Source: Synergistaceae bacterium (GTDB taxonomy: Bacteria; Synergistota; Synergistia; Synergistales; Aminobacteriaceae). From it: a stretch of DNA of 39,150 bases. A model generated the notes under the pieces. It was not told the origin of the DNA. It ran no database searches and worked only from the letters and a program-made list of their open reading frames with translations. Both the position numbers and the translations under genes were made by a program. Below, piece after piece: positions 934 through 28,096 of this stretch. The DNA lies in assembly GCA_018436595.1 (NCBI GenBank), contig JAHDLC010000024.1, positions 1 to 39,150 on the forward strand, read 5' to 3'. Numbering within the stretch: position 1 is the stretch's first letter; each line of letters opens with the position of its first letter.

Positions 934-2190
934 ATGAAGTGCACAGGCAGGTTGTTCAGAATATGGTGTTTGGTTTTCAGCGCGCTGGTTTTGTTTTCCC
1001 TTTCCGCGTCTGTGGTGTGCGCGGCGGGAGAGGACGCGGGTGTCAAAGGATTGTGGCTCCGGATTCCGGAATTTCCGGACGATGCGGAGGTTGACGAGTT
1101 TTCCGCGGATGAGGACGGCGAAGTAACCTACATCCGCTCCATCGACGACGGCAGGTTTGTGCTGGGCATCTTCAGGATACCCGCCGGCGACGAAATGACG
1201 CCCGAAAAATTGAAGGAAACGATTGCGGAGAGCGTGACGAACAGAGGCGGTGACGCTGATGACATCGAGTTCGACGCCGGGGCGGAGGACTTCGCCGAAT
1301 TGCTCTCCTACCCGTGCCTGACCGCTGAATACGAAATCGGCGAGGACGAGGACGCCACAAAGTTCGGGGTCATCGGGGTGTTCACCCACAAGTACGTTTT
1401 CCTCGTCCAGGCGGCGGTCGATGAGGATTCGCTCGACGACTACAGCGACAGGACCCAGGTGTGGCTCGAGGGAATGAAACTCGTGGGCGGTGCAGAATCC
1501 GGAGAAGAGAAAAACGAAGGCGGAGAAGGCAGAGGCGATCTGTTCGACGACGAAACATCGGACAACGACGGAAAGACACCGGATTTCGTCGCAGTTGTCT
1601 ACTCGCTGCCGGAGTTTCGGGGCGTCTCGTGGCACATCCCCGCGCCGGGCGAATATGACCTGGGCAGCGGCTTCGGCCTGCCCAACGACAGCGTATGTTC
1701 CGTTGCCGTATGTCCGGGATACAGGGTCACGCTCTACCAGCACTCGGAATTCGGCGGTGAGAGCGCAGAATTCGAGGACAGCGAAGAAGACCTGGGCGAT
1801 CTGAAACGCTGGGCGTCGTCCCTGAAAGTCGAACAGATAGAGGAGCCGGACCCTGACCTTGCTCTTGCATGGTTTGAGGTCCAGGCGGAGAACGAGCAGG
1901 GTTTCGAGGAGATTGAACCCGCGCCGAAAGCACTGAAAACTCACGCAGAAAGAATAAAGCGCTTCCAGGCTGCGGGGGAGATGAACTGGTACGGCACGAC
2001 GAAGGACGCGGAGCGGGTCAAGCTTGGGGGAGAACTGATCGGGATTTTCACCGACCTGGGGGTTGATATGAGCAACTGGGAGGCAAACACTTTCGCCCAG
2101 ATGATGAACAATTTTTACGACTGGCGCAAGGACCTGAGCGTGTGGGATACGGCGTGCCTGATTCTCAACGTCGACCCGGAAACTTTTTGA
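934..2190 (+). CDS. Exported protein with a beta/gamma-crystallin-like domain
   Basis: A 418-residue protein. I chose ATG 934 because GAGGAG at 920-925 lies 8 nt before it; an in-frame GTG at 925 overlaps that site. Residues 1-28 look like a signal peptide (basic start, long hydrophobic core, cleavage near CAAG). Residues ~30-180 form a module shared with the next gene (VKGLW near the start, a SYPC motif, then a hydrophobic strand). An acidic linker follows (~185-217). Residues ~218-302 are a Greek-key beta/gamma-crystallin domain: FRGVSWHIP, GEYDLGSGFGLPNDSVCS and LYQHSEFGGESAEF. The first calcium half-site (NDSVCS, ~251-256) is close to the N/D-N/D-x-x-S/T-S consensus; the second (KRWASS) lacks the acidic pair. 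The C-terminal ~110 residues are unrecognised. It probably acts outside the cytoplasmic membrane; its binding partner is unknown. Confidence 0.85.
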   Translation: MKCTGRLFRIWCLVFSALVLFSLSASVVCAAGEDAGVKGLWLRIPEFPDDAEVDEFSADEDGEVTYIRSIDDGRFVLGIFRIPAGDEMTPEKLKETIAESVTNRGGDADDIEFDAGAEDFAELLSYPCLTAEYEIGEDEDATKFGVIGVFTHKYVFLVQAAVDEDSLDDYSDRTQVWLEGMKLVGGAESGEEKNEGGEGRGDLFDDETSDNDGKTPDFVAVVYSLPEFRGVSWHIPAPGEYDLGSGFGLPNDSVCSVAVCPGYRVTLYQHSEFGGESAEFEDSEEDLGDLKRWASSLKVEQIEEPDPDLALAWFEVQAENEQGFEEIEPAPKALKTHAERIKRFQAAGEMNWYGTTKDAERVKLGGELIGIFTDLGVDMSNWEANTFAQMMNNFYDWRKDLSVWDTACLILNVDPETF

Positions 2191-2340
2191 GCAATAGGAA
2201 AAAAAGCGCCGGGGAGAAAAAGAGACAGGATATGCGTTGAATACCTATTCGGCAGCGGTTTTGATGTTTGCTTCACCTTCGGCGGAGGGAACCCCGGTTT
2301 TCAGGTCCGGAACCATGCAGAGACAGGAGGTTTCAGTGAA

Positions 2341-3612
2341 ATGAGAAAGGTCATGCTGTACGTTTCGCTTTTCTGTGTTTTTGCCGCTGCGGCATTCTGC
2401 TTCGGAACTGCGGCGAACGCAGACGATTCACCGGATGGGTGGGTGAAAGGGCTGTGGATACAAGCGGCCGGGCTGCCCAAAGACGCGGTGATCGAAGATT
2501 TTTCCGACGGCGACGATGAAAAGCCATGGTTTGTCTACAGTTGGGGAAAGGGCAGCGACGGCCCTGCCGTGACGCTCGGTGTTGGGCGCTTTCCATCTTC
2601 TGCGGATATCGGGGAAAAACTGCTGAACCTCGACAAAAAAGTGCTTCGCGAATTCATCGGCTCGGAAGCTTTCTGGGAAAGCCCCGACGCGAAAAAGCTG
2701 ACATTCACGCAGGCCCCTGAAAAAATAAGCGCGGGCCTCTCCTACCCCTGCCAGATCGTGCGATACGCGGAATCGGATATGGGGCTCTCCCACATGGTCC
2801 TGTTCATAGAGACCGATCCGTTTCTTTTTATGGCTGAGATAACCTGGGAAACAGAGAACAAAAAGTTCAAAAAAAGCGACGGGGAAAAAATCCTGGCGAA
2901 TCTTGCTCTCGTCGAGCAGGAAGGGATGAAAGCCTCCGGGCCGGACGGTGACCTATTTTCACTGAAGGACGGGCGCCTTTTTATGGGCGAGGAAAGTGTT
3001 GAAGCGGAAGTGAACGAGGTGCCGCCGGAAATCGAAGGCCCGGTGCGTTTCTGGAGCGCCGTCGGGGCGGATGACTCGGGCCTCGTCAGGGAAAATGAAA
3101 CCGGCGTCCGGTTCTTTGCGGAAGACGGAGCCTTTCTGGCGTTCCTGCCCCTCGAAAGCGCGGACGAGTGCCAGGATATCATTTTCAGTCCGGACGGGAC
3201 TTTTTTCCTGCTGATGAGCGGAAGCGGGATCCGGGCCGACATGACGTACATACTCTACGATCCGGAAACAATGGAGAAAAAAATCGAAATTTCCGGGACA
3301 AGAGGATCCGCAGAGTGGATTGACGTCGGCCGTTTTGTGCTGACCCGGATCGACGATGTGCGCGAGACGGAAAGCGGGACTTTTTCCATGGCCGCGCTCC
3401 GCCTCTCGGCAGTGATGTATGACACCGTGGCGGAGGAGCTGGTCGTTCTGAAAGAAGCGACCGCGACGAAAAATTACTGGTGCGGCGGTTTGGCGGACGA
3501 CGGCGGCTCGCTCATCATCAGCGAAGATTCAGTGACGTCGGAAAAGGACTGGGGCGACGAGGAAAAAATCACAACGCGGGAAATAAAAATAGAGATTCCC
3601 GCGGCAGGATAA
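2341..3612 (+). CDS. Exported protein: shared N-terminal module plus propeller-like C-terminal half
   Basis: A 423-residue protein starting at ATG 2341, with CAGGAGG about 10 nt upstream. Residues 1-27 are a signal peptide ending in ANA. Residues ~33-200 parallel the preceding gene: VKGLW, P-x-DA, then DFS, a SYPC motif at a similar distance, and a hydrophobic strand before the domain ends. This points to a domain duplication. The C-terminal half (~215-423) has repeating beta-rich units such as IIFSPDGTFFLLMS followed by ILYDPETMEKKIEI, reminiscent of TolB/WD40-type beta-propeller blades. Only part of a propeller would fit in ~200 residues. No catalytic motif was seen. A role in the cell envelope or periplasm is inferred from the export signal only. 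Confidence 0.8.
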   Translation: MRKVMLYVSLFCVFAAAAFCFGTAANADDSPDGWVKGLWIQAAGLPKDAVIEDFSDGDDEKPWFVYSWGKGSDGPAVTLGVGRFPSSADIGEKLLNLDKKVLREFIGSEAFWESPDAKKLTFTQAPEKISAGLSYPCQIVRYAESDMGLSHMVLFIETDPFLFMAEITWETENKKFKKSDGEKILANLALVEQEGMKASGPDGDLFSLKDGRLFMGEESVEAEVNEVPPEIEGPVRFWSAVGADDSGLVRENETGVRFFAEDGAFLAFLPLESADECQDIIFSPDGTFFLLMSGSGIRADMTYILYDPETMEKKIEISGTRGSAEWIDVGRFVLTRIDDVRETESGTFSMAALRLSAVMYDTVAEELVVLKEATATKNYWCGGLADDGGSLIISEDSVTSEKDWGDEEKITTREIKIEIPAAG

Positions 3613-3641
3613 AGACCTGCCGAGGACCTGTGTTGTGGGGC

Positions 3642-3679
3642 GATTGTGCTGCGGGAGAGGAGACTCCCGCAGCACAATC
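3642..3679 (+). terminator. Strong 16-bp hairpin in the intergenic region (terminator or attenuator candidate)
   Basis: Bases 3642-3657 (GATTGTGCTGCGGGAG) are perfectly complementary to 3664-3679, with a 6-nt loop (AGGAGA). There is no T-run after it, so it is not a classic intrinsic terminator for the plus strand. It lies 30 nt after the stop of the propeller-like gene and 90 nt before the next start. It may stabilise the upstream mRNA end or cause partial termination. Confidence 0.6.
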
Positions 3680-3770
3680 AGGGTGCTGTTTCAGATTCCG
3701 CCTGTTAGCAATCGGCGGTGTTCTGTTTCAGAGAAGGGCGGAAAGCATATTCAACAAAGGGGGGCAAGAC

Positions 3771-4316
3771 ATGAGAGGAAAGAACAGGTTCGGACTGCTG
3801 GCGGGCATGGCGGTGCTGCTTGTGCTGGTGTTCGCCTCCGCAGCCCTGGCGAAACCCGACTGGGTGACTGTCAGGTACACGGGATGCAAACTTTCGACGG
3901 AAAAGAACACGAAGGTGACGGACGGCAACCACAGAAAACTGGTTCTGTACTTCGACGTCATCAACAACAGCAAGAGCGGCGATATCATTACGGCCATCTA
4001 CGACAGAAAAATAGGCTACAAAGGAGTGTTCACCATCCACAAGATGGAACAGGGCCTTGTCCAGAACGGCGTGATACAGTCGCAGGGATGGAGACCTGCA
4101 ACGTGGAACGTCAGTTATTCCGGCACATATACCAAACCGATAAAAGGAGAATGGTATCCCGGACAGGTGTACAAGTACGACATCTCCGTTTCCCTCAATA
4201 AACTCATCAAGCCTTTCGGGGGCAACTGGAAAAAGACCAATGAAGCGGCGTCCAGAGGCTTTAATTTCAAGCCGAATTCACTGTCTTTTGATTTCGGGGT
4301 CCGCAGCCACAAGTAA
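3771..4316 (+). CDS. Exported protein of unknown function (181 aa)
   Basis: The start at ATG 3771 is supported by AAGGGGGGC about 7 nt upstream and by the signal peptide that begins there (MRGKNRF, then a leucine/valine-rich core and cleavage after ALA at ~27). The frame is open further upstream, but that stretch holds the 3642-3679 hairpin and has no protein-like character. The mature ~154 residues are rich in tyrosine, tryptophan, lysine and beta-branched residues (LVLYFDVINNSKSGD, YKYDISVSLNK), as in an immunoglobulin-like beta sandwich, and contain only one cysteine. I do not recognise the family. The gene lies among other exported-protein genes on the same strand. Confidence 0.8.
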   Translation: MRGKNRFGLLAGMAVLLVLVFASAALAKPDWVTVRYTGCKLSTEKNTKVTDGNHRKLVLYFDVINNSKSGDIITAIYDRKIGYKGVFTIHKMEQGLVQNGVIQSQGWRPATWNVSYSGTYTKPIKGEWYPGQVYKYDISVSLNKLIKPFGGNWKKTNEAASRGFNFKPNSLSFDFGVRSHK

Positions 4317-4406
4317 GGCCGCTGTTCAAAAAATGATCGCCGGCTTTTGAAGCTGTGCGGAGGGAGCTTTCGAGGTGCGAAAAAGGAGGAGGCCGTTCTG
4401 AAAAAA

Positions 4407-5780
4407 ATGCCGATAGGGCTGCGAAGCCTGGCGGTCCTGTGTCTTGCCGCTCTTTTCCTGATGGGACCCCCGCCGGCGGCCTTTGCCCTGAAACTGACGA
4501 TCCGAAACGACTTCGCAGACAGCCTCAACACTGCCGTGGTCTACTACAGCGACTCCACCGGCGCATGGACCACCAGAGGCTGGTACGTGGTGAGGCCCCG
4601 CGAATCGCGGACCATCACCTTTTCCACCTCCAAACCGGCCATGTATCTCCATTCCTATCTCTCCGGCAGGAATACAATCTCCTGGGGAAAAGGGGACATT
4701 ACAAGGGTAGTCATGTCGAAGGCCTTTGTGTACGAGGACGGCGAAACATGCCCCGCCGGTCCCGGCAGGAGGACAGCGAAGTTCACCAGGTACGCGGCAA
4801 AAAACGGCCGTGTGAACTACAGTCCGGTGAAGACGGGGGAGCCCCTTCCCGCAGGGGGAGAAGACACTTCTTCGGCGGTACGCAATGAACTGCTGAAACT
4901 CATCAATGCCGACCGCAGAAAGACCGGCGCCCGGGATCTGAAACTGGATGCGACCCTGTCGAAGGCGGCGGCCCGCCGTGCTTCGGAACAGCCGAAGGTG
5001 TGGGGCCACACCCGTCCGAACGGAAAAAGCTACAGTTCCGTCTTCGCCGAGTTCAGTCTCAATCCGGCAAAAAGCGGCGAAAACGTGGCTTCAAATACGA
5101 AACCTCTGAAGGCCTCTTCTTTTCATGAACAGTTCATGAACTCTCCCGGGCATAAAAAAGTTCTGCTGAACCCGGAGTATTCCGCCGTGGGGCTGGCTTT
5201 TCACGAGGAAGGGGGCAGGACCTACTGCGTGGAACTCTTCACGGGAGAGGGCGGGGGAGCCGGAAACACCCCGTCCCCGCCCAGGGACGGTCTCGCTGTT
5301 GCGGCTGCCAATGTGGTGAACCTTATCAACAACGAGAGGACCCGTTCCGGACTTACACCCCTGTGGACGGGAGATGCCCTGACCAGCGCGGCCCTGACCA
5401 GGGCACGGGAGATGAACGTGAAATTCGACATCGTCACCAGGCCTGACGGAAGGACGTTCGATACTGTCCTGAGGGACAGCGGCCTGGTCTTTGCCGGGGC
5501 ATCGACATCGGGGGTTGACACGCCGGAGGCCGACGCACTCGAAATATTCCGGGAGTTTTTTAACGACAGAAAGACCCGAAATTCCATGATGGGCGGGGAG
5601 TATACTCATGTGGGGGCGGGAATCTGTCGGCTCGGCAGCGGATATTACACCGTTCTCCTCTTTGCCGGGGGCGGCGGAAGCGGCACGACAGAGACAGGCC
5701 TTGCCGGGGCGATGAATGAGCTGGAGAAGTCCCTCCAGGAATTTGAGGAGGCCCTCCGGCAGCTCGGCGATCTGTTTTAG
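4407..5780 (+). CDS. Exported DUF1036-like protein with two CAP (SCP/PR1) domains
   Basis: A 457-residue protein from ATG 4407. A CTG at 4398 is better spaced from the GGAGGAGG at 4385-4392 and would add LKK before the signal peptide, so the true start could be there. The signal peptide ends near AFA. Residues ~28-125 are DUF1036-like (LTIRND, then RGWYVVRPRESRTITF). Residues ~158-280 are a CAP domain with the expected ligands: His201 in GHTRP, Glu225 in GEN, and His249 in SPGHKK. Residues ~303-420 are a second CAP domain (VVNLINNERTRSGL) in which all three are missing. The C-terminus is a short amphipathic helix (LEKSLQEFEEALRQL). Bacterial CAP proteins are usually secreted and bind small ligands or act in the envelope; the exact role here is unknown. 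Confidence 0.9.
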   Translation: MPIGLRSLAVLCLAALFLMGPPPAAFALKLTIRNDFADSLNTAVVYYSDSTGAWTTRGWYVVRPRESRTITFSTSKPAMYLHSYLSGRNTISWGKGDITRVVMSKAFVYEDGETCPAGPGRRTAKFTRYAAKNGRVNYSPVKTGEPLPAGGEDTSSAVRNELLKLINADRRKTGARDLKLDATLSKAAARRASEQPKVWGHTRPNGKSYSSVFAEFSLNPAKSGENVASNTKPLKASSFHEQFMNSPGHKKVLLNPEYSAVGLAFHEEGGRTYCVELFTGEGGGAGNTPSPPRDGLAVAAANVVNLINNERTRSGLTPLWTGDALTSAALTRAREMNVKFDIVTRPDGRTFDTVLRDSGLVFAGASTSGVDTPEADALEIFREFFNDRKTRNSMMGGEYTHVGAGICRLGSGYYTVLLFAGGGGSGTTETGLAGAMNELEKSLQEFEEALRQLGDLF

Positions 5781-5899
5781 GTACGAAGGAACCTCGGGAG
5801 AACAGAAAGCCGGGAACAGTCACGGCGCCGGAGTTGAAAAATACGGTGCTGAAAGAGGCGGGTTGCATACTGTGAAGGTCCGAAAGGAGAAGTGACGGG

Positions 5900-6364
5900 G
5901 TGAAAAACTTTCTGAAATTCGTATCGGCATTCTGCGTTTTCGCGGCGGCATTGTCTTTTGCCTCATCGTCCTGTGCCGCTGTCTCAATCACGATACAGAA
6001 CAACCGCGAACACAATCTTTCGTTCGCTTTCTGCTGGGCCGGGTTCGACAAGCCCGACGACAGGCGGATCGGCTGGTACAACGTCAAGGCGGGAGAGTCC
6101 AAAACGTTCACCTTCAAGGATGCTCAGTACGCCCTCACTGCGCAGGACTTCGGGTATTATGCCATGGGCGGCGGAAAGGTCTGGACGGGGAAGGCGGATG
6201 ACGAGCGTCCTCTGCCCGTGATCATCCATCCGAAACAGGCATTCAAAGGGAGTCCGGAGGATTCTATCGACGGCGGCAGAAAAGTATATTTCAGGCACAT
6301 CAAACTGAAAGAAACCAGTGATGACAAGGTAAACGGAAGCGCGACCCTCACCTTCAACCCATGA
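5900..6364 (+). CDS. Exported DUF1036-like protein (stand-alone)
   Basis: A 154-residue protein from GTG 5900, with AAGGAGA 9 nt upstream. The signal peptide (MKNFLKFVSAFCVFAAALS, cleavage near CAA) is followed by one DUF1036-like domain: ITIQNN, GWYNVKAGESKTFTF, and a YYAMGGGKVWTG turn. It is a clear paralogue of the N-terminal domain of the preceding CAP protein: both have the I-R/Q-N start, the GWY-V motif, the ES-T-TF strand and a W-G-KG/KA element. It is separated from that gene by about 120 nt and followed by a terminator, so it probably closes the exported-protein cluster. Function unknown. Confidence 0.85.
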   Translation: MKNFLKFVSAFCVFAAALSFASSSCAAVSITIQNNREHNLSFAFCWAGFDKPDDRRIGWYNVKAGESKTFTFKDAQYALTAQDFGYYAMGGGKVWTGKADDERPLPVIIHPKQAFKGSPEDSIDGGRKVYFRHIKLKETSDDKVNGSATLTFNP

Positions 6365-6466
6365 CCGGGGAAACCCGGGGCGCGAGGGGGCATGCTCCGC
6401 GAAAAAGGGAAAGTTCTTTTTTCACCGGGGGAGAACGGCTGAGAAAAGAAACAAGAAAATAACTGA

Positions 6467-6510
6467 CCGGCGGACGGAGGATGGAACTCCCGGGTCCGCC
6501 GGTTTTTTTT
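6467..6510 (+). terminator. Rho-independent terminator after the exported-protein cluster
   Basis: The 9-bp stem CCGGCGGAC (6467-6475) pairs with GTCCGCCGG (6494-6502) and is followed by eight T (6503-6510). It separates the exported-protein genes from the VOC-TctBAC operon. Confidence 0.85.
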
Positions 6511-6539
6511 ACCCATTCCCTGCATCTTATATTATATAC

Positions 6540-6569
6540 TTGACAAAATAAACGTTTATCTGGTACTGT
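6540..6569 (+). promoter_or_regulatory. Sigma-70-type promoter of the VOC-tctBAC operon
   Basis: TTGACA at 6540-6545 is a perfect -35 box. TACTGT at 6564-6569, preceded by TGG (extended -10), follows after 18 nt. It sits just after the terminator at 6467-6510 and 60 nt before the VOC gene. The -10 match is only partial. Confidence 0.5.
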
Positions 6570-6628
6570 GATGGTGAAATCCGGTTTCCCTCAATGGGGG
6601 ATGCCGGCGAAAGAGGAGGGAAAACGCC

Positions 6629-7048
6629 ATGATTACCCAGATTGACCACATTGAGCTCATCGTGAAGGACGTCAAGGAGTACGTGGATTTTTACCAGAAG
6701 CTCGGTTTCAAGCTTCTCCGATGGACGGACCACCACGGCGGGTCGGCGGAGCTTCAGCTTCCCGGGCCGAACCAGCCCATTTTCGAGATCCACACCGTCA
6801 TTGACGAGGAAAACATCGGCGTCAACCACATCGCCTTCAAGACAGACGATCTTGTGAAGACCTATGAGGAGCTGAAGGCATCGGGAATCGAGTTCAGCAA
6901 CGAACCCTACAGGAACAGGCACACGGGGCGGGGCAATGTCCGCCTCCGGGACCCTGACGGATGGCGCCTTCAGATGTGCGACGGCGAAAGAAAAGAACCG
7001 GAAAAAGGGGTTCCCGAGTCCGAGGTAAAGGACGAGTTCAAACGGTAG
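6629..7048 (+). CDS. VOC-superfamily (glyoxalase-like) protein
   Basis: A 139-residue cytoplasmic protein with two beta-alpha-beta-beta-beta modules of the vicinal-oxygen-chelate fold: ITQIDHIELIVKDVKEYVDF at the start, FEIH near 52, then VNHIAFKTDDLVKTYEEL, and the closing DPDGWRLQM. His7 and His68 sit where family metal ligands are expected; the last ligand position is Gln (LQM) rather than the usual Glu, so the activity cannot be assigned. VOC enzymes include glyoxalases, methylmalonyl-CoA epimerases, dioxygenases and resistance proteins. It is the first gene of an operon with tctBAC (16 nt gap), so it may act on the imported carboxylate. GAGGAGG lies before the start. Confidence 0.85.
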   Translation: MITQIDHIELIVKDVKEYVDFYQKLGFKLLRWTDHHGGSAELQLPGPNQPIFEIHTVIDEENIGVNHIAFKTDDLVKTYEELKASGIEFSNEPYRNRHTGRGNVRLRDPDGWRLQMCDGERKEPEKGVPESEVKDEFKR

Positions 7049-18766: not shown

Positions 18767-18812
18767 ATGTGGTGCCCGGGCAGCCCGAAGAGAGCGGGAG
18801 GAGGTATCCGTC

Positions 18813-21260
18813 ATGAAACGATGGGCGTTTATTGTTTCGTTCGTGTTCCTCACCTGCGCCCTCGCCGCGGGAATCTGCGGTGCGGTGCCGGCGGAGGACC
18901 TGGAGCGGAGAATCGAAGAGCTTGAGAAAGCGGTCGAGGAGAGCGTGAAATCGGGCAGGGGCCTGTCCCCGGAATTGATGGAGGAACTGGCGAAAGCCGT
19001 GGAAGAACTGCTGAAAGGAGAGAAGGACAGGGAGGAGAGCGAAGGAAAGGAGCCCGGCGGCGGCTGGGAGGAAGTTCCTTTTTGGGGGGGCATAACGGTT
19101 TCCCGGAATTTGTCCGGTTCGGCGCTAATGAAAGAGGACGGGGAGGGCGGAACGGCCTCGGACCCCGGAAAAAGGGACTGGCGGTGGTCGGGGCGGAAGG
19201 AGAGCGGGGGGAGCCCGTCCTCAGGTCAGAAAGGCAGCTCTTCCTGGTCGGGGAGCAGTTCGGCCTTTCTTTCGGCCATGATCACAGGATCAGAGCCGAT
19301 CCCCGACAGGGACGGAAACGTGATCGGGTACCAGCCCGTGGGGTACGTGACGGGACGGGTGACGGAACGGGAGAAGTTTCGGGCGAAGCATGTTTCCATA
19401 ACGTCGCACTACTCCCGTTCCGCAAGGGAGGAGCATGCCTTCAGTCCTGAAAGCATCGACGGCTGGTGCAGGCTGACCGTCAACCCGAAGGAAGGGCGGT
19501 ACGCCCTGTCCTTTCCCTCAATTTACCTCGGGGACGGCACGGGGGAAACGGTGATGGCCTATTCCGGCCCGGATATGCGGCTCGAGGAACGGGAACCCTG
19601 GCACGGCCTTGGGCCCGTGGACTGGATTCCGTCGGAGCCGGACAGGGAGTCTCTCCTGTACAACCCTGACAGGGGCGTGGTGGCGGGCTCCTTCACCTAT
19701 GCACTGCCTCCCGGCGGGATTGACATGGACCTGATGCGCAGGGGGCTCGGTTTTATTCCCCCTGAGCTTTCCGGCCTGAAGGGGGAACTCCTCTCCGGGT
19801 ATTCCGGGCTCGCAAAAGAGTTCGCCGCCGCGGCGGGAAAGACCCCGGGAATGTACTCCGGAACGTGGACGGTCACGTGGAGCCTGAATATCGGGAAAGT
19901 ACCGGTCCGGGCGGAGCTGGAGCCCGGAGGGGACTACGAAAACTGGATGCCGGAGCTGATCTGGGGCGTGGGGAATTTCGTCCGGGTGAAGGCGAAGATC
20001 GTGGAGCCTGCGGGCCTGGAGGGTAAAATCCGGTTCACCCTTGAGGACGTGAGCCGGGAGCCGGGAGTCTGCATGAATTTTCCCTTTTATGACCGGGAGG
20101 AGGCTCCCGACCTGGTGATTTCGGAGATGAGCGGTTCAGGGCTGAACATCGCGGAGGACGGCCAGACCGCCGTGACCCTCGACGATGTGAACGAGGCGGA
20201 GATCGTGGTTCAGGCAAGGGATTTCGGTGCCCGGGGGAAGCTTTCCGCCACGGCGGTTGTCCTGGCGGGCGGAAAGGAGATGGAGGTCCGGGCGGTGCTG
20301 AAGAGGACCGGAGAGCACTGGGTGACCCTTCCCCTGGACGAGAACGGGAACGGTATCGCCGACTCCTGGGAGAAGGCAGGCGGCATGTGGCCCTGCGCCG
20401 CTGACTCGGACGACGACGGTGATCCGGAAGGAAAGGCCCCCGGGGACGGGCTCTCAGCTTACGAGGAATACCGGGGGTTTTTCGTGAAGGGCAGGCACGG
20501 ACGCCTCGACCCGAACAGAAAGGACCTCTTCGTGCACGATCCCGATGGGCTTGCGGAAAATGCCGGCTTCGGGCAGGTCACCGGGCTGGCGGTTCATTAC
20601 ATCGAACCGGAGGAAGGCCGGTGCACCGGGACTGATGACAGGGCACGGGTGGTGAATTTCCGGTCCGGCTTCTCCCACCTGGTGGACCAGCACTGCCTCT
20701 GGATAAAGAAGGACACTCTCCCCGAACCGGATCCCTTCAACTGGGGAGCCTGCGAGGGACCGCCGGAAATCGGGCCGCCCCGGACGGCCGACCGGTACGT
20801 GCTGGTCTACGCGGACCAGATCAGGGCGGACCTCGAAAGAACAGTGAGGGAGAACCGCCCCGAGATAACCAATGCCCTGGGGCAAAGAGGCCTTCGCCCC
20901 GACGCCGCCTGGTTCGAGGAGCAGGTCGCCGCCGCCGTGGCCATGACCGCGATCCACGAGGCCTGCCACGGGCTGGGGATTTCCCACCACTACCGGTCGC
21001 TCAGGGAGACCCTGCCGAAGGGTGCCGATGTGGAAAAGGCCATAATGGAGCTTGACATCAGCCCATCCACCGGGCAGATGAGCTGCGTGATGCGCTACAC
21101 CCGGGACTGGGGCAAGCACCCGCGGCTCACCTTCAAGGCGGAGAGCGAAACCCTCGACATGCTGCGGGGTCGTCCCTGGCCCCACACCCTGTGTGATACC
21201 CTGGACGACTGCCGGGGGCAGATGGTGGTCAGCGACAGGGAGACGGGGCACATTTTCTGA
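18813..21260 (+). CDS. Exported metzincin-like zinc metalloprotease with calcium-loop repeats
   Basis: An 815-residue protein with GGGAGGAGG 9 nt before ATG 18813. The signal peptide ends near CGA. A charged coiled-coil-prone segment follows (~28-75, EDLERRIEELEKAVEESV), then a Ser/Gly/Lys-rich linker, then a long unrecognised middle region. At ~509-550 are two Asp-rich calcium loops of the bacterial TSP3 kind (DENGNGIADSWE, then DSDDDGD and LSAYEEY). Residues 715-725 read HEACHGLGISH, an exact metzincin HExxHxxGxxH, and Met760 in SCVMRY is a fitting Met-turn 35 residues later. So the zinc site and general base (Glu716) are complete. It should be a secreted or surface protease. I cannot place it in a named metzincin family. 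Confidence 0.85.
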   Translation: MKRWAFIVSFVFLTCALAAGICGAVPAEDLERRIEELEKAVEESVKSGRGLSPELMEELAKAVEELLKGEKDREESEGKEPGGGWEEVPFWGGITVSRNLSGSALMKEDGEGGTASDPGKRDWRWSGRKESGGSPSSGQKGSSSWSGSSSAFLSAMITGSEPIPDRDGNVIGYQPVGYVTGRVTEREKFRAKHVSITSHYSRSAREEHAFSPESIDGWCRLTVNPKEGRYALSFPSIYLGDGTGETVMAYSGPDMRLEEREPWHGLGPVDWIPSEPDRESLLYNPDRGVVAGSFTYALPPGGIDMDLMRRGLGFIPPELSGLKGELLSGYSGLAKEFAAAAGKTPGMYSGTWTVTWSLNIGKVPVRAELEPGGDYENWMPELIWGVGNFVRVKAKIVEPAGLEGKIRFTLEDVSREPGVCMNFPFYDREEAPDLVISEMSGSGLNIAEDGQTAVTLDDVNEAEIVVQARDFGARGKLSATAVVLAGGKEMEVRAVLKRTGEHWVTLPLDENGNGIADSWEKAGGMWPCAADSDDDGDPEGKAPGDGLSAYEEYRGFFVKGRHGRLDPNRKDLFVHDPDGLAENAGFGQVTGLAVHYIEPEEGRCTGTDDRARVVNFRSGFSHLVDQHCLWIKKDTLPEPDPFNWGACEGPPEIGPPRTADRYVLVYADQIRADLERTVRENRPEITNALGQRGLRPDAAWFEEQVAAAVAMTAIHEACHGLGISHHYRSLRETLPKGADVEKAIMELDISPSTGQMSCVMRYTRDWGKHPRLTFKAESETLDMLRGRPWPHTLCDTLDDCRGQMVVSDRETGHIF

Positions 21261-21281
21261 CGGCCGAAGGTCGTGTTTTTT
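21260..21281 (+). terminator. Terminator after the metzincin gene
   Basis: ACGGCC-GAA-GGTCGT (21260-21274, one G-T pair) starts at the stop codon and is followed by G and six T (21276-21281). The stem is short, so efficiency is uncertain. Confidence 0.6.
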
Positions 21282-21288
21282 CGGTTTT

Positions 21289-21320
21289 GTCATCCTGAGG
21301 AGCGAAGCGAGGAAGGATCT
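21289..21320. repeat. REP-like intergenic repeat (GTCATCCTGAGG...GAAGGATCT family)
   Basis: The sequence starts GTCATCCTGAGG, continues AGCGAAGCGAGG and ends AAGGATCT. From memory, near-identical elements (CCTGAGCGAAGCGAAGGATCT type) recur in intergenic regions of many unrelated bacterial genomes. Here it is a single copy between convergent genes (metzincin and opgH). Its arms TCCT.../...AGGA are partly complementary around the AGCGAAGCGA core. Confidence 0.6.
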
Positions 21321-21334
21321 GCCCCTCGCTTTAT

Positions 21335-23443
21335 CTATTTCTTCTCTGGAGGGACCAGGCCCCACCGGGCGGCGGCTTTTTCGTCGCCGAGGCGCCACAC
21401 CTTCCTGTGAAGTTCCCTGAGATGGTGCGGTGCCCTGAGGAGAGCCATTCTCTCCTTCCTGGTCAGGCTGTCGGGGCCGCAGGCCAGGGCCTTTTCCACG
21501 ATCCTGTCCCGGGCCCGCTCCCGGGAAGGGGCGCCCCGTCGGAAGCGAAGGAGGAGGGACGTGTGGAGGCTGTGCACCAGGGGATCCACCACCGCCCGGA
21601 GAAAGCCCTTCTTCCGGGAAAAGGGAAAGGGAAAGAAGGGGTCGGGCCGGCTGAGGTTGTCCTCAAGGGCCCGAAGGGGCGGAGGCAGCTCCACCTCCTC
21701 GGGGATCAGGAAGAGCCCCGCCTTCCGGAACAGCCGTCCAACGGCGGCCCGTCCGGTGAAGACGGAGATGGGGGCGGAGAGGGCAAGGGAAAAGGTGATG
21801 GGTGAGATCCACCAGAAGAAGGACGGGGTGATCCAGTAGACCACCGCTCCCCAGCCTATGCCCAGAAGGGAGCCCCACCAGTGGGCCCGGAGGGCTTCCC
21901 TCCACGTGGTTCCCCGGTCGTCCCGGGACTGGGTTCCCCACCCCACGCTCTTTCCCAGGAGGGTGGAGACCACGAAGAGGCTGTGGAAGACCATCCGGAT
22001 GGGGGTGAGGATCATGGACAAAACCACCTCAAGGAGAATGCTCAGGAAAAGGCGGATTTTTCCCCCGTAGAGCCTGGCCTTGAAATCGGCGAGGAGGATG
22101 GGGAAGGCGCCGAGGAATTTCGGCAGGAAGAGGAGCAGTGTGGTGGAGCCGAGGAGCGATATGGCCCAGTGGGGGCGCCAGACGGGCAGCTCCGGGAGGA
22201 ATTTGCGCAGTATGGGCATGTAGACCGGCTCGAAGAGGACCTCCGAGATGGCCTGGGCGGAGTTAATGGTCAGGAAGATGAGCCAGAGGAGGGCCGAGCC
22301 GTAGGAGAGGATGCCGTTGATGAACAGCGCCCTGTGGGCCGGGAAAAACCCCCTGGTGAAGAGCAGGCGTGTGTGCTGGAGGTTCCCCTGGCACCACCGG
22401 CGGTCCCGCTTGAGTTCGTCGATGAGGGTGGGGGGCGTTTCCTCCCAGCTTCCCTTCAGGTCGTAGGTGAGCCAGATGCCGTAACCGGCCCGGCACATGA
22501 GAGCCGATTCAACGTAGTCGTGGCTGAGGATGTCGCCGCTCAGCGGTCCTTTGCCGGGAAGGCGGGGAAGTTCGCAGTGCTTCATGAAAGGTTCCACCCG
22601 GATAAGGGCGTTGTGGCCGCAGTACTGGGCGTCGCCGAGCTGCCAGAAATGGAGCCCTGCGGCCAGCAGGGGACCGTAGACGTGGTTGGCGAACTGCTGC
22701 ACCCGGGCGATGAGGGTTTCCCTGTTCACCGCCTTGGGGGGCGTCTGGAGGATACCGATGTCCGGCCGGGCCTCCATGATCTGAACCAGCCGCACCAGTG
22801 TCTCTCCCGTCATGATGCTGTCCGCATCGAAAACGGCCATGTACCGGTAGCTTTTTCCCCAGCGCCTGCAGAAGTCGGCCACGTTGCCGCTCTTCCGCTT
22901 GGTGTTGCTTGTCCGCTTCCGGTAGAAGACACGCCCGAAGGCGCTTTCTTCGATGCAGAAGCGGTGCCAGGCCTCTTCCTCCTCCACCCAGACGTCCGGG
23001 TCGGTGGTGTCACTCAGCAGGAAGAAGTCGAACCACTCCAGGGATCCCGTCTCCCGGACGGAGTGGTAGGTTGTCCGCAGCCCGGCGATGACCCGCTTCA
23101 CCTCTTCGTTGTATATGGGAATGAGGATGGCTGTCCGGGCGGAACGGTCGGCGATGGAAAGGTCGAGGCCGTCACAGGCCCTGGAGACCCGGTAGGCGTC
23201 CTTTTTCGTCAGCAGGATGACCAGTCCCGCGATAGAGGTCCAGAAGCCCACGGAAATCCAGGCGAAGAGGGTTGTGAACACCGCCACGAGGAAGGTGTCC
23301 AGCAGGATGCTTCCCCTGTCGGGCAGGAGCCTGGCCATGGTGTTGCTGGAGATGATGGTCGGGATGAGGACAATGAAGAGGAGCAGCAGGCGCCGCCTGC
23401 TCCCGGTGCGCCTCCAGGCCGGGACCGGTCCGCCGTCAGCCAT
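21335..23443 (-). CDS. opgH: Glucan biosynthesis glucosyltransferase OpgH, copy 1 (membrane and catalytic part only)
   Basis: A 702-residue membrane glycosyltransferase of family GT2; E. coli OpgH is 847 aa. The start at 23443 has GGAGGG 7 nt upstream. Membrane segments near ~17-40 and ~45-75 flank the start, then comes the cytoplasmic catalytic domain with DADS (206-209), HFWQLGDAQY, ILSHDYVESAL and DRRWCQGN (347-350). Further membrane segments and the SVGWGTQSRDDRGT loop follow. OpgH polymerises beta-1,2-glucose from UDP-glucose and passes it through the membrane. The ~120-residue N-terminal domain of E. coli OpgH is encoded separately by the overlapping upstream gene. Copy 1 has Cys275 and Cys317 where copy 2 and E. 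coli have Trp and Arg, so it may be specialised. Confidence 0.93.
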   Translation of the reverse strand: MADGGPVPAWRRTGSRRRLLLLFIVLIPTIISSNTMARLLPDRGSILLDTFLVAVFTTLFAWISVGFWTSIAGLVILLTKKDAYRVSRACDGLDLSIADRSARTAILIPIYNEEVKRVIAGLRTTYHSVRETGSLEWFDFFLLSDTTDPDVWVEEEEAWHRFCIEESAFGRVFYRKRTSNTKRKSGNVADFCRRWGKSYRYMAVFDADSIMTGETLVRLVQIMEARPDIGILQTPPKAVNRETLIARVQQFANHVYGPLLAAGLHFWQLGDAQYCGHNALIRVEPFMKHCELPRLPGKGPLSGDILSHDYVESALMCRAGYGIWLTYDLKGSWEETPPTLIDELKRDRRWCQGNLQHTRLLFTRGFFPAHRALFINGILSYGSALLWLIFLTINSAQAISEVLFEPVYMPILRKFLPELPVWRPHWAISLLGSTTLLLFLPKFLGAFPILLADFKARLYGGKIRLFLSILLEVVLSMILTPIRMVFHSLFVVSTLLGKSVGWGTQSRDDRGTTWREALRAHWWGSLLGIGWGAVVYWITPSFFWWISPITFSLALSAPISVFTGRAAVGRLFRKAGLFLIPEEVELPPPLRALEDNLSRPDPFFPFPFSRKKGFLRAVVDPLVHSLHTSLLLRFRRGAPSRERARDRIVEKALACGPDSLTRKERMALLRAPHHLRELHRKVWRLGDEKAAARWGLVPPEKK

Positions 23444-23777
23444 TGGTTTTCCCTCCGAAGAGCTCCCGCCTCCACCGCCGGAGAAACCGGACGAGGGATG
23501 TCCTCCAGGGAAGGCGGTCCATCTCTTCCGCCACCATGACGGTCCGGTTCAGGGGAGGGAAGGACGAAATCCGCCGCCCTCCCCGGTCCAGGAGGTCGGG
23601 AGAAAAGCCTTCCTCCCGGAGGAGCCGCTCAAGGGCGTCCATGGCACCTTCGGGAGATGACGGGGCTTCCTCCAGGCTCCGCGCAGCGAGGGCGAGGCCC
23701 CTGGCGGGCCGGATGCCGAGTCCCCGGACATAGAGAAGGACCCTGTCTCCGGCTGCCCTCTGTTCGGGGGTGTTCAT
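23436..23777 (-). CDS. Stand-alone OpgH N-terminal-domain protein, copy 1
   Basis: A 113-residue soluble protein. I chose ATG 23777 because the second copy starts in the same way (M-x-TP, then DRVLLYVR); the frame is open upstream to 23927, but that part is not conserved. The C-terminal third (ISSFPPLNRTVMVAEEMDRL, then PWRTSLVRFLRRWRREL) aligns by eye with the E. coli OpgH segment just before its first membrane helix ([20 protein letters not shown]). The stop TGA overlaps the opgH start by 8 nt (ATGGCTGA), so translation is probably coupled. In E. coli this OpgH domain binds FtsZ in a UDP-glucose-dependent way. Whether this protein does so is unknown. Confidence 0.85.
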   Translation of the reverse strand: MNTPEQRAAGDRVLLYVRGLGIRPARGLALAARSLEEAPSSPEGAMDALERLLREEGFSPDLLDRGGRRISSFPPLNRTVMVAEEMDRLPWRTSLVRFLRRWRRELFGGKTNG

Positions 23778-23914
23778 TGCGGGGGTTGCTTCCGGACGCT
23801 CGGCCGGAAAGGTCACGGCAGCCTCCGGGAAAAGGGGAATGACGCAAACGTCTTCTCTGGATACACCGGGAAAACCTCCTGGCGGATTGGTCTGATGTTC
23901 ATGATACCCGTGCC

Positions 23915-23943
23915 ATAATACGGGCATTCCTCCCGTCGTGCAA
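23915..23943 (-). promoter_or_regulatory. Promoter candidate before the copy-1 opgH pair
   Basis: On the minus strand TTGCAC (23938-23943) and TATTAT (23915-23920) are separated by 17 nt. The region around the -10 also has CCCGT/ACGGG arms. The same boxes with 16-nt spacing stand before opgG at 28150-28177. This would give copy 1 its own transcription start, partly inside the end of copy 2's transcript. Confidence 0.5.
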
Positions 23944-23954
23944 GGGACGGGGGG

Positions 23955-26075
23955 TTACTCTCCGCTCTCTGACGGGGGAAGGACCAGGCCCCACTGGGCG
24001 GCACCGTCGCGGCTCTCCGCCTCCCACACTCTCCTGTGGAGTTCGCCGAGATGGCGGGGATCTTTCAGCAGCTCCATTTTTTCCCGCCGGGTGAGGCTGC
24101 CCGGTCCTTTCACCGCCGCTTTTTCCACCAGTTCTTCCAGGGCGTTTTCCCGGGCCGGGGCTTTCTTTTTGTAGCGCAGGAGGAGGGATGTGTGGAGGGC
24201 GTGGACAAGGGGATCCACCACCGCACGGACAAATCCCTGCTTCCGGGAGAGGGGAAAGGGCGTATAGGGCTCGGGACGCCGGAGGTTTTCCTCCAGGCCG
24301 GCAAGTTCGTCGGGGAGTTCCACTTCTTCGGGGATGAGGAGCAGGCCTGCGTTGCGGAATGCTTTCCCGAGGGAGGCCCGGCTCGTGAAGACCGAGAGGG
24401 GCGCCGACAGGAGAAGGGACGCGACGATGGGGGATATCCAGGGGAAGAAGGACGGATTGGCCAAATAGACCAGCCCGCCCCATGCCGCGCCGAAGAGAGT
24501 ACCCCACCAGTGGGCGGCAACCGCCTCTCCCCAGGATGTTCCCCGGTCGTCCCGGGACTGGGTTCCCCACCCCACGCTTTTTCCAAGCAGGGTAGCGGTC
24601 ACGAAAAGGCTGTGGAAGATCATCCGCACAGGGGCGAGAAGGGTGGAGAGCCCCACTTCGAGCAGGATGCCCGAGGCGAGGTTTGCCCTGCCGCCGAAAG
24701 CCCGTGCCTGGGGATCCTTCACCAGGATGAGGACCATGCTGAAGAGCTTGGGGAGGAAGAGCAGCACCGCCGTGGACCCCAGCAGGGTGAGGGCCCAGTG
24801 GGGATGCCAGACCGGCCACTGGGGAAAGAGGGTCTTCGTTCCGGAGAAGTACACCGGTTCGAAGAAGACGTCCGCCACGGCCTGGGCCGAGCTCAACAGC
24901 AGGAAGGCCAGCCACAGGAGGGCGGATCCGTAGGAGAGGATTCCGTTGAGGAACAGGGCCCTGTGGGTGGGGAAGAGTCCCCTGGTGAAGATGAGGCGCA
25001 TGTGCTGGAGGTTCCCCTGGCACCACCGGCGGTCGCGCTTCAGCTCGTCCAGCAGGGTCGGCGGCGTTTCCTCCCAGCTTCCCCCGATGTCGTAGGCGAG
25101 CCAGACGCCGTAGCCTGCGCGGCGCATGAGGGCGGCCTCCACGAAATCATGGCTGAGGATGTCGCCGCCCAGGGGGCCCTTCCCCGGAAGACGGGGCACC
25201 TGGCAGTGCTTCATGAAGGGTTCCGTCCTGATAATGGCGTTGTGCCCCCAGTACTGGGCGTCGCCGAGCTGCCAGAAATGGAGGCCTGCGGCGAACATGG
25301 GGCCGTAGACGTGATTCGCGAACTGCTGGGCCCTGGCGATGAGGGTCTCCCTGTTCACACCCGCCGGAGGCGTCTGGAGGATGCCGATGTCCGGCCGGGC
25401 CTCCATGCTCTGCACCATGCGGACCATGGTGGTTCCCGCCATGACGCTGTCGGCGTCGAAGACGATCATGTAGCGGTAGTTCTTTCCCCATCGGCGGCAG
25501 AAGTCGGCCACGTTGCCGCTCTTCCGCCTCGAGTTGCTGGAGCGCCTCCGGTAGAAAACCCGCCCTGAGGCGTTCTCTTCCCGGCAGAACCGGTGCCAGG
25601 CTTCCTCCTCCTCCACCCAGATGTCGGGGTCGGTGGTGTCGCTCAGCAGGAAAAAGTCGAACAGACCGGAGGAGCCTGTTTTCCCGAGGGAGGTCCAGAC
25701 GGTGCGGAGCCCCGCCGTCACCCGTCTGACATCCTCGTTGTATATGGGAATGAGGACGGCGGTCCGGGCATCGGTGCCGGCGATGGTCAAATCCATCCCT
25801 TCGCCGGCCCGGGACACGGAGAACCGGTTGTTTTTGAACAGCAGGAGGACGAAGCCCATGGATGCCGTCCAGAATCCCACGGAAATCCAGGCGAAAAGCA
25901 CGGCAAACACCGCCACGAGGAGGATCTCCAGTGCGGTGCCGCCCCGGGAGGGAAGCAGTCCGGCCATGGTGCGTGCCGCTGCGAGAGTGGGAAGGAAGAC
26001 AAGGGTCAGAAGCAGGATGCGCCTCCAGCTGGCGGCGCGATTCCAGGAAGGGTTGGCCGTTCCGGCGTCATGCAT
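23955..26075 (-). CDS. opgH: Glucan biosynthesis glucosyltransferase OpgH, copy 2 (membrane and catalytic part only)
   Basis: A 706-residue GT2 membrane protein, strongly similar to copy 1 along its whole length. The start at 26075 (MHDAG) has GGGAGA 9 nt upstream. It carries the same motifs in order: PIYNEDVRRVTAGLR, DADSVMAG, LGDAQYWGHNAIIRTEPF, LSHDFVEAALMRRAGYGVWL and DRRWCQGN, then the SVGWGTQSRDDRGT loop. The Trp in DAQYWGHN and Arg in ALMRRAG match E. coli OpgH, so this copy looks like the canonical enzyme. As in copy 1, the cytoplasmic N-terminal domain is a separate gene overlapping it by 8 nt. It sits directly downstream of opgG and its N-domain gene, and 177 nt before the copy-1 N-domain gene. 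Confidence 0.94.
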   Translation of the reverse strand: MHDAGTANPSWNRAASWRRILLLTLVFLPTLAAARTMAGLLPSRGGTALEILLVAVFAVLFAWISVGFWTASMGFVLLLFKNNRFSVSRAGEGMDLTIAGTDARTAVLIPIYNEDVRRVTAGLRTVWTSLGKTGSSGLFDFFLLSDTTDPDIWVEEEEAWHRFCREENASGRVFYRRRSSNSRRKSGNVADFCRRWGKNYRYMIVFDADSVMAGTTMVRMVQSMEARPDIGILQTPPAGVNRETLIARAQQFANHVYGPMFAAGLHFWQLGDAQYWGHNAIIRTEPFMKHCQVPRLPGKGPLGGDILSHDFVEAALMRRAGYGVWLAYDIGGSWEETPPTLLDELKRDRRWCQGNLQHMRLIFTRGLFPTHRALFLNGILSYGSALLWLAFLLLSSAQAVADVFFEPVYFSGTKTLFPQWPVWHPHWALTLLGSTAVLLFLPKLFSMVLILVKDPQARAFGGRANLASGILLEVGLSTLLAPVRMIFHSLFVTATLLGKSVGWGTQSRDDRGTSWGEAVAAHWWGTLFGAAWGGLVYLANPSFFPWISPIVASLLLSAPLSVFTSRASLGKAFRNAGLLLIPEEVELPDELAGLEENLRRPEPYTPFPLSRKQGFVRAVVDPLVHALHTSLLLRYKKKAPARENALEELVEKAAVKGPGSLTRREKMELLKDPRHLGELHRRVWEAESRDGAAQWGLVLPPSESGE

Positions 26076-26436
26076 GGCCGTTTGTCTCCCAGGGTCCGAA
26101 CAGGTTCCGCCTCCACCGGCGGAGGAAGCGCCCAAGGGCGGATTTCCACGGAACCCTGTCGAGAGGCTCCGCCACCATGACGCCCCTGTTCAGGGAAGGC
26201 ATGGAGGAGATGTGCCTTCCCTCCTCGTCGAGGATCCCCCGGTCGAGGCCGTTTTCCGCCAGGAGTTCCCTGAGTTTTCTCATGGCCTCCGACACGGACG
26301 CGGGTCCGGCTGCCTTGAGACTCTCCACGGCAAGGTCGAGCCCCCGAAAGGGCGGCAGGTCAAGGGCGCGGACGTAGAGGAGCACCCTGTCCCTGGAGTA
26401 GCGCCACTCGTCGGGGGATCCGGCGGGGGTGCTCAT
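26068..26436 (-). CDS. Stand-alone OpgH N-terminal-domain protein, copy 2
   Basis: A 122-residue soluble protein. ATG 26436 is favoured by similarity to copy 1; an in-frame ATG at 26460 would overlap opgG by 17 nt. It shares with copy 1 DRVLLYVRALDL at the start and the C-terminal block ISSMPSLNRGVMVAEPLDRV, then PWKSALGRFLRRWRRNLFG. The middle is helical and less conserved. Its TGA overlaps the opgH copy-2 ATG by 8 nt (ATGCATGA), exactly as in copy 1. It lies 7 nt after opgG, so opgG, this gene and opgH form one operon. Its role is probably regulatory or structural for the glucosyltransferase; there is no direct evidence. Confidence 0.87.
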   Translation of the reverse strand: MSTPAGSPDEWRYSRDRVLLYVRALDLPPFRGLDLAVESLKAAGPASVSEAMRKLRELLAENGLDRGILDEEGRHISSMPSLNRGVMVAEPLDRVPWKSALGRFLRRWRRNLFGPWETNGHA

Positions 26437-26443
26437 TCCGGTC

Positions 26444-28096
26444 TCAGGGATGGAGGTCATAGGTCCACGTCTCCGTGAGGGGGTCGGGGAGGTTCTCTCC
26501 CTTTTTCAGCAGGGCGGAAAGGCGGATGCGAGGCCGCGACGGGGCAGTGGGGAAAAGGGTCTTGAATTTCCCCTCCGGATCCAGGGCGACGGTGAGGACG
26601 AGCCGCCATCCACCGGTGGCCCCGTTCTTGTGAAGCTGCTTCTCGAGAAGCCTGGCCCCATCGTCCAGGGTGACCACGCTCGTCAGTCCTGCGTCCGCCG
26701 GCAGGTCCTGGAGCTCTCCGCCCTCGAAATCCAGGACGAAACGTACCGTCCCTTCCTGGTTCCCGGCGGCCATCCGGGTCGCCGCAACCCTGCCGAGGGA
26801 GTGGAGGGGCTCCTTCGGGTTCAGCCAGCGCATCCGGTAGGCGAAGGCCATCGTCCGGGGATACTTCCCGGGGTCGCCGGCGGGCTGACCGTCGGGCCCC
26901 TTTTCCGCCCCTTTCCCGGGAACCCAGTAGGCCACCATGTTGTCGTGGATCTCAAGTTCCGATGGAATTTCCACAAGTTCCACCCATCCCCGCCCCCAGT
27001 TCCCCCGGGGCTCGATCCAGAGAGAGGGGCGCTTTTCGTACCGCGCTTCCAGGTCCTGGTAATGATCGAAGATCCAATCCCGCTGCATCAGGCCGAATCC
27101 GGCGGGGTTTTCCTGCGGGAAGGGAATGAGAGCCAGCCTGCCGAGGTTGGCCAGGGGACGCCAGATCCACTCTCCTGAATTTGTCCGGATCAGGAGGCCG
27201 TCGGAATCGTGGACCTCGGGACGATAGTCGCCGGGCCTGCCGTTTTCCGTCTCCCCGTAGAGAAACATGCTCGTCAGGGGGGCGATGCCGAGCTTCTGGA
27301 CGTCTTTCCTCAGAAAAAGAACGCACTCCGTGTCCATGGAGGTCTCCTTTCCGGGGATGATGGTGAAGGTGTAGGCTCCCGCAAGGCTCGGGCTGTCCAG
27401 GAGAGCGTGAACGGTGATGGAATCGCTGTCCTCCCGGGGTTTTTCAATCCAGAATTCCCGAAAATAGGGGAATTCCTCCCCCGACTGGAGAGCCGTGTCC
27501 ACTGCGAGGCCCCGGGCGGAAAGGCCGTACTGCCCGTCCCGGGCCACGGCACGGAAGTAGCTGGCCCCGAGGAAGACGGCAACCTCGTCCTTGTATTTTC
27601 CCGTGTTCAGGTTGTAGTGGATCCGGAAGCCGGCGAAATCGAGGGGCGTTCCGGCGACCTTCGAGGCGAATTCTTCATCACCGTATTCGAAGACGGACGG
27701 GGAGAAGGTGAGTTTCTCCGCGCGGCCGCCGTCCACGACGTTGACGGCCACCAGGCGGTTGTAGAAAAGGCCCGGATGGAAGAACTGCACCTCGAAAGGC
27801 AGCCCCTCTTTTCTCCACAGGGATTCGGAGGGATGGAACCTGATTTTCCTCCACTGGTCGTAGCTGATGTTCAGCAGAAAATCGGGAACCTGCCCTTCCG
27901 GATCCTCGAAGGGACGGGATGCCAGTTCTTCAGCCTTGTGCTTCACGTCAACGAAGGAAAAGGCATGGAATTCCGCCGGAGCGGAAGGGGGTTCCGACGC
28001 ACGGGACCTGGCGGGAAGCAAGCAAAACGCCGCCGCGAGGAGCGCGGCGACGGCAATCAGACGGTATGAGCGGCGGTGCTGGGCGCAGGGAAACAC
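26444..28096 (-). CDS. opgG: Periplasmic glucan biosynthesis protein OpgG
   Basis: A 550-residue protein from GTG 28096, with AAGGAGGG 8 nt upstream. The signal peptide ends near RASA. The mature protein matches OpgG throughout: FSFVDVKHKAEELASRPF, LPFEVQFFHPGLFYNRLVAV, GASYFRAV and GLSARGLAVDTA, then HDSDGLLIRTNSGEWIWRPL, ENPAGFGLMQRDWIF, HYQDLEARYEKRPSLWIEP and NWGRGWVELVEIPSE. E. coli OpgG is 511 aa. OpgG acts in the periplasm on the glucan made by OpgH; OpgG/OpgD-type proteins are now known as beta-1,2-glucanases (GH186). It heads the operon with two OpgH pairs. Confidence 0.96.
   Translation of the reverse strand: MFPCAQHRRSYRLIAVAALLAAAFCLLPARSRASEPPSAPAEFHAFSFVDVKHKAEELASRPFEDPEGQVPDFLLNISYDQWRKIRFHPSESLWRKEGLPFEVQFFHPGLFYNRLVAVNVVDGGRAEKLTFSPSVFEYGDEEFASKVAGTPLDFAGFRIHYNLNTGKYKDEVAVFLGASYFRAVARDGQYGLSARGLAVDTALQSGEEFPYFREFWIEKPREDSDSITVHALLDSPSLAGAYTFTIIPGKETSMDTECVLFLRKDVQKLGIAPLTSMFLYGETENGRPGDYRPEVHDSDGLLIRTNSGEWIWRPLANLGRLALIPFPQENPAGFGLMQRDWIFDHYQDLEARYEKRPSLWIEPRGNWGRGWVELVEIPSELEIHDNMVAYWVPGKGAEKGPDGQPAGDPGKYPRTMAFAYRMRWLNPKEPLHSLGRVAATRMAAGNQEGTVRFVLDFEGGELQDLPADAGLTSVVTLDDGARLLEKQLHKNGATGGWRLVLTVALDPEGKFKTLFPTAPSRPRIRLSALLKKGENLPDPLTETWTYDLHP

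Follow-up and report, generated by a model that had tools for sequence, protein, structure and literature searches.

The window, the whole 39,150-nt stretch of Synergistaceae DNA analyzed here, contains a gene (18813–21260, + strand) whose product can be read with good confidence as an exported zinc-dependent endopeptidase from an uncatalogued family of the metzincin clan. This clan includes many bacterial virulence and nutrition proteases, as well as the human MMPs and ADAMs. As judged from its zinc motif, Met-turn, and predicted fold, the protein is a metzincin. The family, which was absent from the curated sets searched (Pfam and NCBIfam), was filed as a new family within a known clan.

Gene and domain architecture

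The ORF was intact, with an ATG start and 815 codons for amino acids, exactly as the earlier note had described it, and the gene was single-copy in its genome. Direct reading revealed a Shine-Dalgarno-like AGGAGG (18799–18804, +) 8 nt 5′ of the ATG, and a terminator-like hairpin followed by a T run was located at the stop codon (21260–21274, +), which was not clearly enriched relative to shuffled sequences. The upstream neighbors, a Sel1-repeat gene and a NudC-like gene, and the downstream neighbors, tandem OpgH-like glycosyltransferases and OpgG, all lie on the opposite strand, so that the protease gene forms a single-gene, monocistronic unit. A search of Rfam revealed no regulatory RNA 5′ of the gene.

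The protein is apparently exported via a Sec-type signal peptide comprising residues 1–24 (18813–18884, +; MKRWAFIVSFVFLTCALAAGICGA), which has no clear lipobox and was modeled as a helix. In the full-length AF2 model (pLDDT 69.7), it was followed by a two-helix, coiled-coil-prone segment at residues 27–76 (18891–19040, +), with helices predicted at 27–47 and 53–76, in agreement with the coiled-coil-prone N-terminus proposed earlier. Residues 10–104 matched the nearest relative, L010, with an E value of 2e-13 (phmmer). The variable, beta-rich region at residues 86–340 (19068–19832, +) was modeled with pLDDT values mostly between 27 and 60 and aligned weakly with the relatives. The earlier note had called the region ahead of the calcium loops unrecognized, which held insofar as no Pfam or NCBIfam model matched it, but residues 348–507 (19854–20333, +) were predicted to form an Ig-like beta-sandwich domain, where the pLDDT mostly exceeded 90 from residue 371 onward. 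This domain was conserved in the family, its VSxEPGxCMN motif was common to the relatives too, and VIA-align matched it to the F-spondin reeler domain with Z 9.6 and to adhesin and cohesin-like domains with Z 8–9.

The Asp-rich loops reported previously were indeed present. These TSP3/EF-like, putative calcium-binding loops, together with the sequence GDGLSxYEEYRGF, occupy residues 509–556 (20337–20480, +; pLDDT about 95), and D517, D533, D535, and the GDG at 544–546 were kept among the relatives. Temptin_C was rejected as an identity of the protein, since its weak match (E 0.07–0.24) covered the Asp-rich loops only and fell below the cut-off. The remaining residues 566–815 (20508–21257, +) constitute the metzincin-like catalytic domain, a reading supported by the AF2 model, VIA-align, the PDB profile matches, and dN/dS.

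Relatives of the window protein

Searches with the window protein against Pfam, NCBIfam, and PHROGs produced no match with a useful score, and there was no match among PDB sequences, plasmids, or phages. Relatives were found by scanning GTDB genomes for EEYRGF-x14-DLF, a motif common to the window protein and a second Synergistota copy (G186), which yielded 73 stretches. The 46 in-frame relatives with a downstream HExxH were combined with the window protein in a 47-row alignment spanning at least 16 phylum-level groups, a count derived from the submitters' MAG names. ORFs without HExxH were excluded; most were truncated or frame-broken, L034 was diverged, and L044 and L066 truly lacked the motif. 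The weak genome matches L007 and L008 were discarded as unrelated proteins. The scan of viral contigs for the family confirmed nothing, and the plasmid and phage searches with the relatives as queries found none.

The window protein carried the family pattern of GDGLSxYEEYRGF-x14-DLF, followed by HExxHxxxxxH and CxMRY. The earlier note had considered the placement of the catalytic site at the C-terminal end unusual, whereas it turned out to be the norm in this family. A single genome, G211 (Candidatus Schekmanbacteria), contained 16 family matches, mostly partial, in a lineage-specific expansion, one of which (L033) had the diverged zinc motif HEVGHAIGAAHY.

The putative active site

The zinc site HEACHGLGISHH at residues 715–726 (20955–20990, +) consists of HEACHGLGISH (715–725) followed by H726, and SCVMRY occupies residues 757–762. 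Both motifs, including Met760, lie at the positions given in the earlier note. The presumed zinc ligands are H715, H719, and H725, with E716 as the presumed general base, and the site lies on a helix predicted at residues 698–719. Among 200,000 shuffles of the window protein, HExxHxxGxxH/D arose 54 times, and only three times with MxY within 120 residues. The motif was also the sole instance across the six frames of the whole window.

HExxHxxxxxH was found in all 47 aligned proteins, of which the 46 relatives had been picked for a downstream HExxH, and this conservation carries more weight than the shuffle counts. The invariance of the EEYRGF and DLF columns is an artifact of how the scan was constructed, whereas the columns of the His residues, the Met-turn, and the Cys residues follow the scan motif at a distance of 100 to 350 residues. 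In the Met-turn CVMRY (residues 758–762; 21084–21098, +), M760 was conserved in 45/47, Y762 in 43/47, and the Arg in 42/47 sequences. Other conserved columns were H595 (44 of 47), E601 (43), N615 (45), and Q626 (46), as well as C758 (41), C794 (42), and C800 (41–44, depending on the alignment), the latter two located at 21192–21212 (+). The joint loss of C758 and C794 in a four-member Gammaproteobacterial clade suggests that these residues may form a pair.

Directly following the third zinc His, 40 of the 47 sequences had His, four Pro, two Tyr, and one Arg, with Pro confined to the four-member Gammaproteobacterial clade. The canonical Gly position was occupied by Gly in 18, Asn in 14, and Ser in nine sequences.

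Predicted fold

The AF2 model of residues 441–815 had a pLDDT of 85.7 and a pTM of 0.86, and all of its 50 best VIA-align matches were metzincins. The best was the archaemetzincin 2x7m (Z 7.5, rmsd 3.7, 139 aligned residues), followed by an elapid snake venom metalloprotease (Z 6.8), TACE (6.8), ADAM8 (6.7), and snapalysin (6.7); these Z values below 8 are middling and can reflect no more than a common arrangement. Foldseek with the predicted models produced no significant match (best E 0.18), so that the fold assignment leans on VIA-align and the sequence profiles. For the window protein alone, sequence support for a metzincin was nil, and it emerged only with the family profile. When the family profiles were compared with the PDB, nearly all matches were metzincins, the best being myroilysin with E values of 2.7e-5 and 1.6e-4, and one short non-metzincin entry (P4) was matched with E 0.002–0.01.

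Since the VIA-align list consisted of one clan and coincided with a zinc motif and a Met-turn, a different explanation of the domain is hard to find. The earlier description of a metzincin-like protease of no obvious family therefore stood, with the structural and PDB profile matches falling in the clan and the curated families unreached; these searches produced no clear match to a family of non-proteases, which would have refuted it.

Relation to named metzincin families

Astacins have a Glu directly after the third His, serralysins a Pro, and adamalysins an Asp, the latter combined with a Cys two residues before the Met-turn Met (CxMR). A Met-turn of the form MxY recalls astacins and serralysins, while CxM recalls reprolysins and archaemetzincins. 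Like the astacins and myroilysin (M12A), the window protein has predicted export, HExxHxxGxxH, and an astacin-type MxY Met-turn, here MRY, with a possible Tyr switch, but it has H726 in place of their Glu. It resembles the reprolysins/adamalysins (M12B) in fold (VIA-align Z up to 6.8) and in the Cys two residues before the Met-turn Met, but differs in having H726 instead of Asp, which followed the third His in 0/47 aligned sequences, and no disintegrin or Cys-rich domains were seen in it. The serralysins (M10B) differ in their Pro at the position of this His. The archaemetzincins (M54) provided the best structural match of the model and share CxM. Their fingerprint is HEXXHXXGXXHCX4CXMX17CXXC (PMC3427221), whereas the window protein has no Cys after the third His, its C794 and C800 lie 34 and 40 residues past M760, and it is a multidomain protein with a predicted signal peptide. 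CLCA metalloproteases also occur in Synergistota (PMC3650047), and this identity was rejected because no Pfam CLCA match appeared. In the window protein the third zinc His is followed by another His, where the named families have Glu, Asp, Pro, or Cys, and relatives frequently replace the Gly, so that none of the named families tested fits.

It is nevertheless conceivable, if unlikely, that the protein belongs to a metzincin family already described (M12A/myroilysin, M12B, or M54), within which it has diverged strongly, and does not deserve a family of its own. Myroilysin as the best profile match and an archaemetzincin as the best structural match would agree with this, as would the MxY and CxM features of the Met-turn and the weak matches of the Pfam reprolysin and astacin models to up to 10 of the 47 members (best E 4e-6), which did not include the window protein. 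However, among the matches listed, no member of the family reached the curated Pfam or NCBIfam cut-offs, the prevailing His after the third ligand and the minority of canonical Gly residues set the family apart, and its traits are a mixture from several families. We therefore retained the reading of a separate family within the clan.

A partner gene downstream of most relatives

Of the 41 proteases for which 500 nt or more of downstream sequence was available, 28 were directly followed by a partner gene on the same strand. It encodes an exported protein of approximately 250–400 aa with an N-terminal half that appeared beta-rich by eye and a TPR C-terminal half; Pfam recognized the TPR alone and no other family. 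The start of the partner's conserved part ranges from 22 nt upstream to 150 nt downstream of the protease end, and the partner gene often overlaps the protease stop codon. Its distribution extended over about 13 phylum-level groups and covered the locus of the other Synergistota copy, with L015, L016, L020, L032, L038, L042, L050, L055, L069, and L078 among the loci that bear it. Alternating protease-partner arrays or tandem protease duplicates were observed at L035, L057, L077, L014, L064, and L082. The partner is a candidate inhibitor, chaperone, or substrate of the protease.

No partner was located directly downstream of the window protease gene, and a search elsewhere in the genus returned generic TPR matches only, with no full-length homologue. 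The end of the window protein also lacked the GTGxN...P..GDA segment present in most relatives, and both the partner and the segment were missing in L010 and in the clade of L028, L043, and L063 as well. Since L058, L062, L081, L040, and L079 had the segment but no partner, the link between the two is partial.

In Listeria, a metzincin encoded together with an exported partner has been described (Mtz-Tim; PMC8235301). Most relatives studied here are similar in that the gene immediately after the protease encodes an exported partner, but their partner is beta-rich with TPRs and not TIMP-like, and the window copy has none. There is about an even chance that this family of at least 16 phyla is ordinarily a two-gene system, in which a co-translated partner would inhibit, fold, or target the protease or be cleaved by it, and that the window protein represents a stand-alone, partner-less subtype with an altered C-terminus.

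Evolution and selective constraint

Within the genus, the orthologue in G001 was intact and 90% identical, and G004 contained a 74% identical fragment at a contig end. The gene was not found in the genus members G003 and, apart from a scar, G002. The scar (L128 2144–2361, G002:C22) occupies the corresponding position, with the Sel1 gene and OpgH on either side, and preserves the beginning of the gene, a 31-bp stretch of its interior, and the final approximately 55 bp. These remnants indicate that the gene was once present and then deleted, and was consequently dispensable.

When 188 genomes of the phylum were searched with a profile, only one further copy emerged, in G186, which was 28% identical over the matched part. 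The distribution was sparse, with 3–4/188 Synergistota genomes and 5/289 genomes of the phylum to which the Verrucomicrobial genome G188 belongs. In the tree, the window protein was nearest to L010, from a Deltaproteobacterial/Myxococcota MAG, and not to the other Synergistota copy, with an SH-aLRT of only 81; L010 also resembles the window protein in its N-terminal helices and its short C-terminus. Together with the sparse distribution, this suggests horizontal transfer of the gene, with MAG binning errors as an alternative.

The gene is under purifying selection. The dN/dS between G000 and G001 was 0.17 (NG86) or 0.11 (YN00) for the whole gene and 0.20–0.25 for residues 86–340, and the strongest constraint was in the metzincin domain, with 0.095 (NG86) or 0.042 (YN00).

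These values bear on the possibility that the window copy is a degenerating leftover of the two-gene system, which has lost its partner and GTGxN segment and is gradually disappearing. The missing partner and the lack of a full homologue in the genus would be expected in that case, and so would the deletion in the sister species G002 and the absence from G003. However, dN/dS well below 1 and the intact orthologue in G001 argue against decay, and the sister lineage L010, which belongs to a different phylum, shares this architecture and likewise has no partner downstream. We thus consider decay improbable, and the window copy looks like a stable partner-less subtype.

Proposed mechanism

In the proposed scheme, the protein would exit the cytoplasm by Sec, and the Ig-like domain and calcium-stabilized Asp-rich loops would form a scaffold ending in the catalytic domain. 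Zinc would be held by H715, H719, and H725 above the Met-turn M760, while E716 would activate the water attacking the peptide bond. By analogy with astacins and serralysins, Y762 may act as an additional, switchable ligand of the zinc. The approximately 500 residues ahead of the catalytic domain, including the coiled coil, could position the enzyme, give latency, or bind substrate. Zinc and calcium binding, catalysis, export, and latency of the window protein are all inferred, and its target is likely an extracellular or periplasmic protein.

Alternatively, the protein may serve as a surface adhesin or scaffold, with a metzincin domain that has lost its proteolytic activity or retains it for self-cleavage only. 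The beta-sandwich and coiled-coil parts do resemble adhesion modules, archaemetzincins of similar fold displayed no activity in vitro (PMC3427221), and two relatives have lost HExxH, which makes a non-catalytic role possible for some family members. By contrast, the window protein has kept all zinc-site residues and the Met-turn in a strongly constrained domain, and HExxH loss is exceptional among the long ORFs, so that we give this alternative little credence for the window protein and favor an active endopeptidase. The two relatives are L044 (Planctomycetota; main ORF 1288–4860, neighbor 4728–6722) and L066 (Bryobacterales; main ORF 1539–3845), the latter of which reads HMLLHAVGVEHH at the motif. 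In both loci the partner gene still follows, and both products are possible pseudoproteases.

A widespread uncatalogued family would add to the clan a zinc-site variant with a His after the third ligand and a free Gly position, as well as a conserved partner protein. It would also make it possible to test which features of metzincins are truly required for activity, and would let annotators name proteins beyond the reach of curated models across many phyla.

Genomic surroundings

The adjoining Sel1, NudC-like, and OpgH genes were rejected as functional partners because they lie on the opposite strand and the Sel1 gene was kept in G002 despite the deletion of the protease gene. The OpgH-like glycosyltransferases beside OpgG are arranged in tandem (21335–26135 and 26444–28096) and are about 70% identical, and the pair was also present in G001 and G002. 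Upstream of the G002 scar, at about 2090–2145 of L128, there is an inverted repeat (CCTAAATCCGCA...TGCGGATTTAGG) that is absent from the equivalent site of the window and is perhaps a small mobile repeat. Downstream of the protease gene, the short repeat ATCCTGAGGAGCGAAGCGA (21292–21310) recurs in four near copies at other sites of the genome, compared with none for its reversed control, and a similar stretch lies beside the G002 deletion scar.
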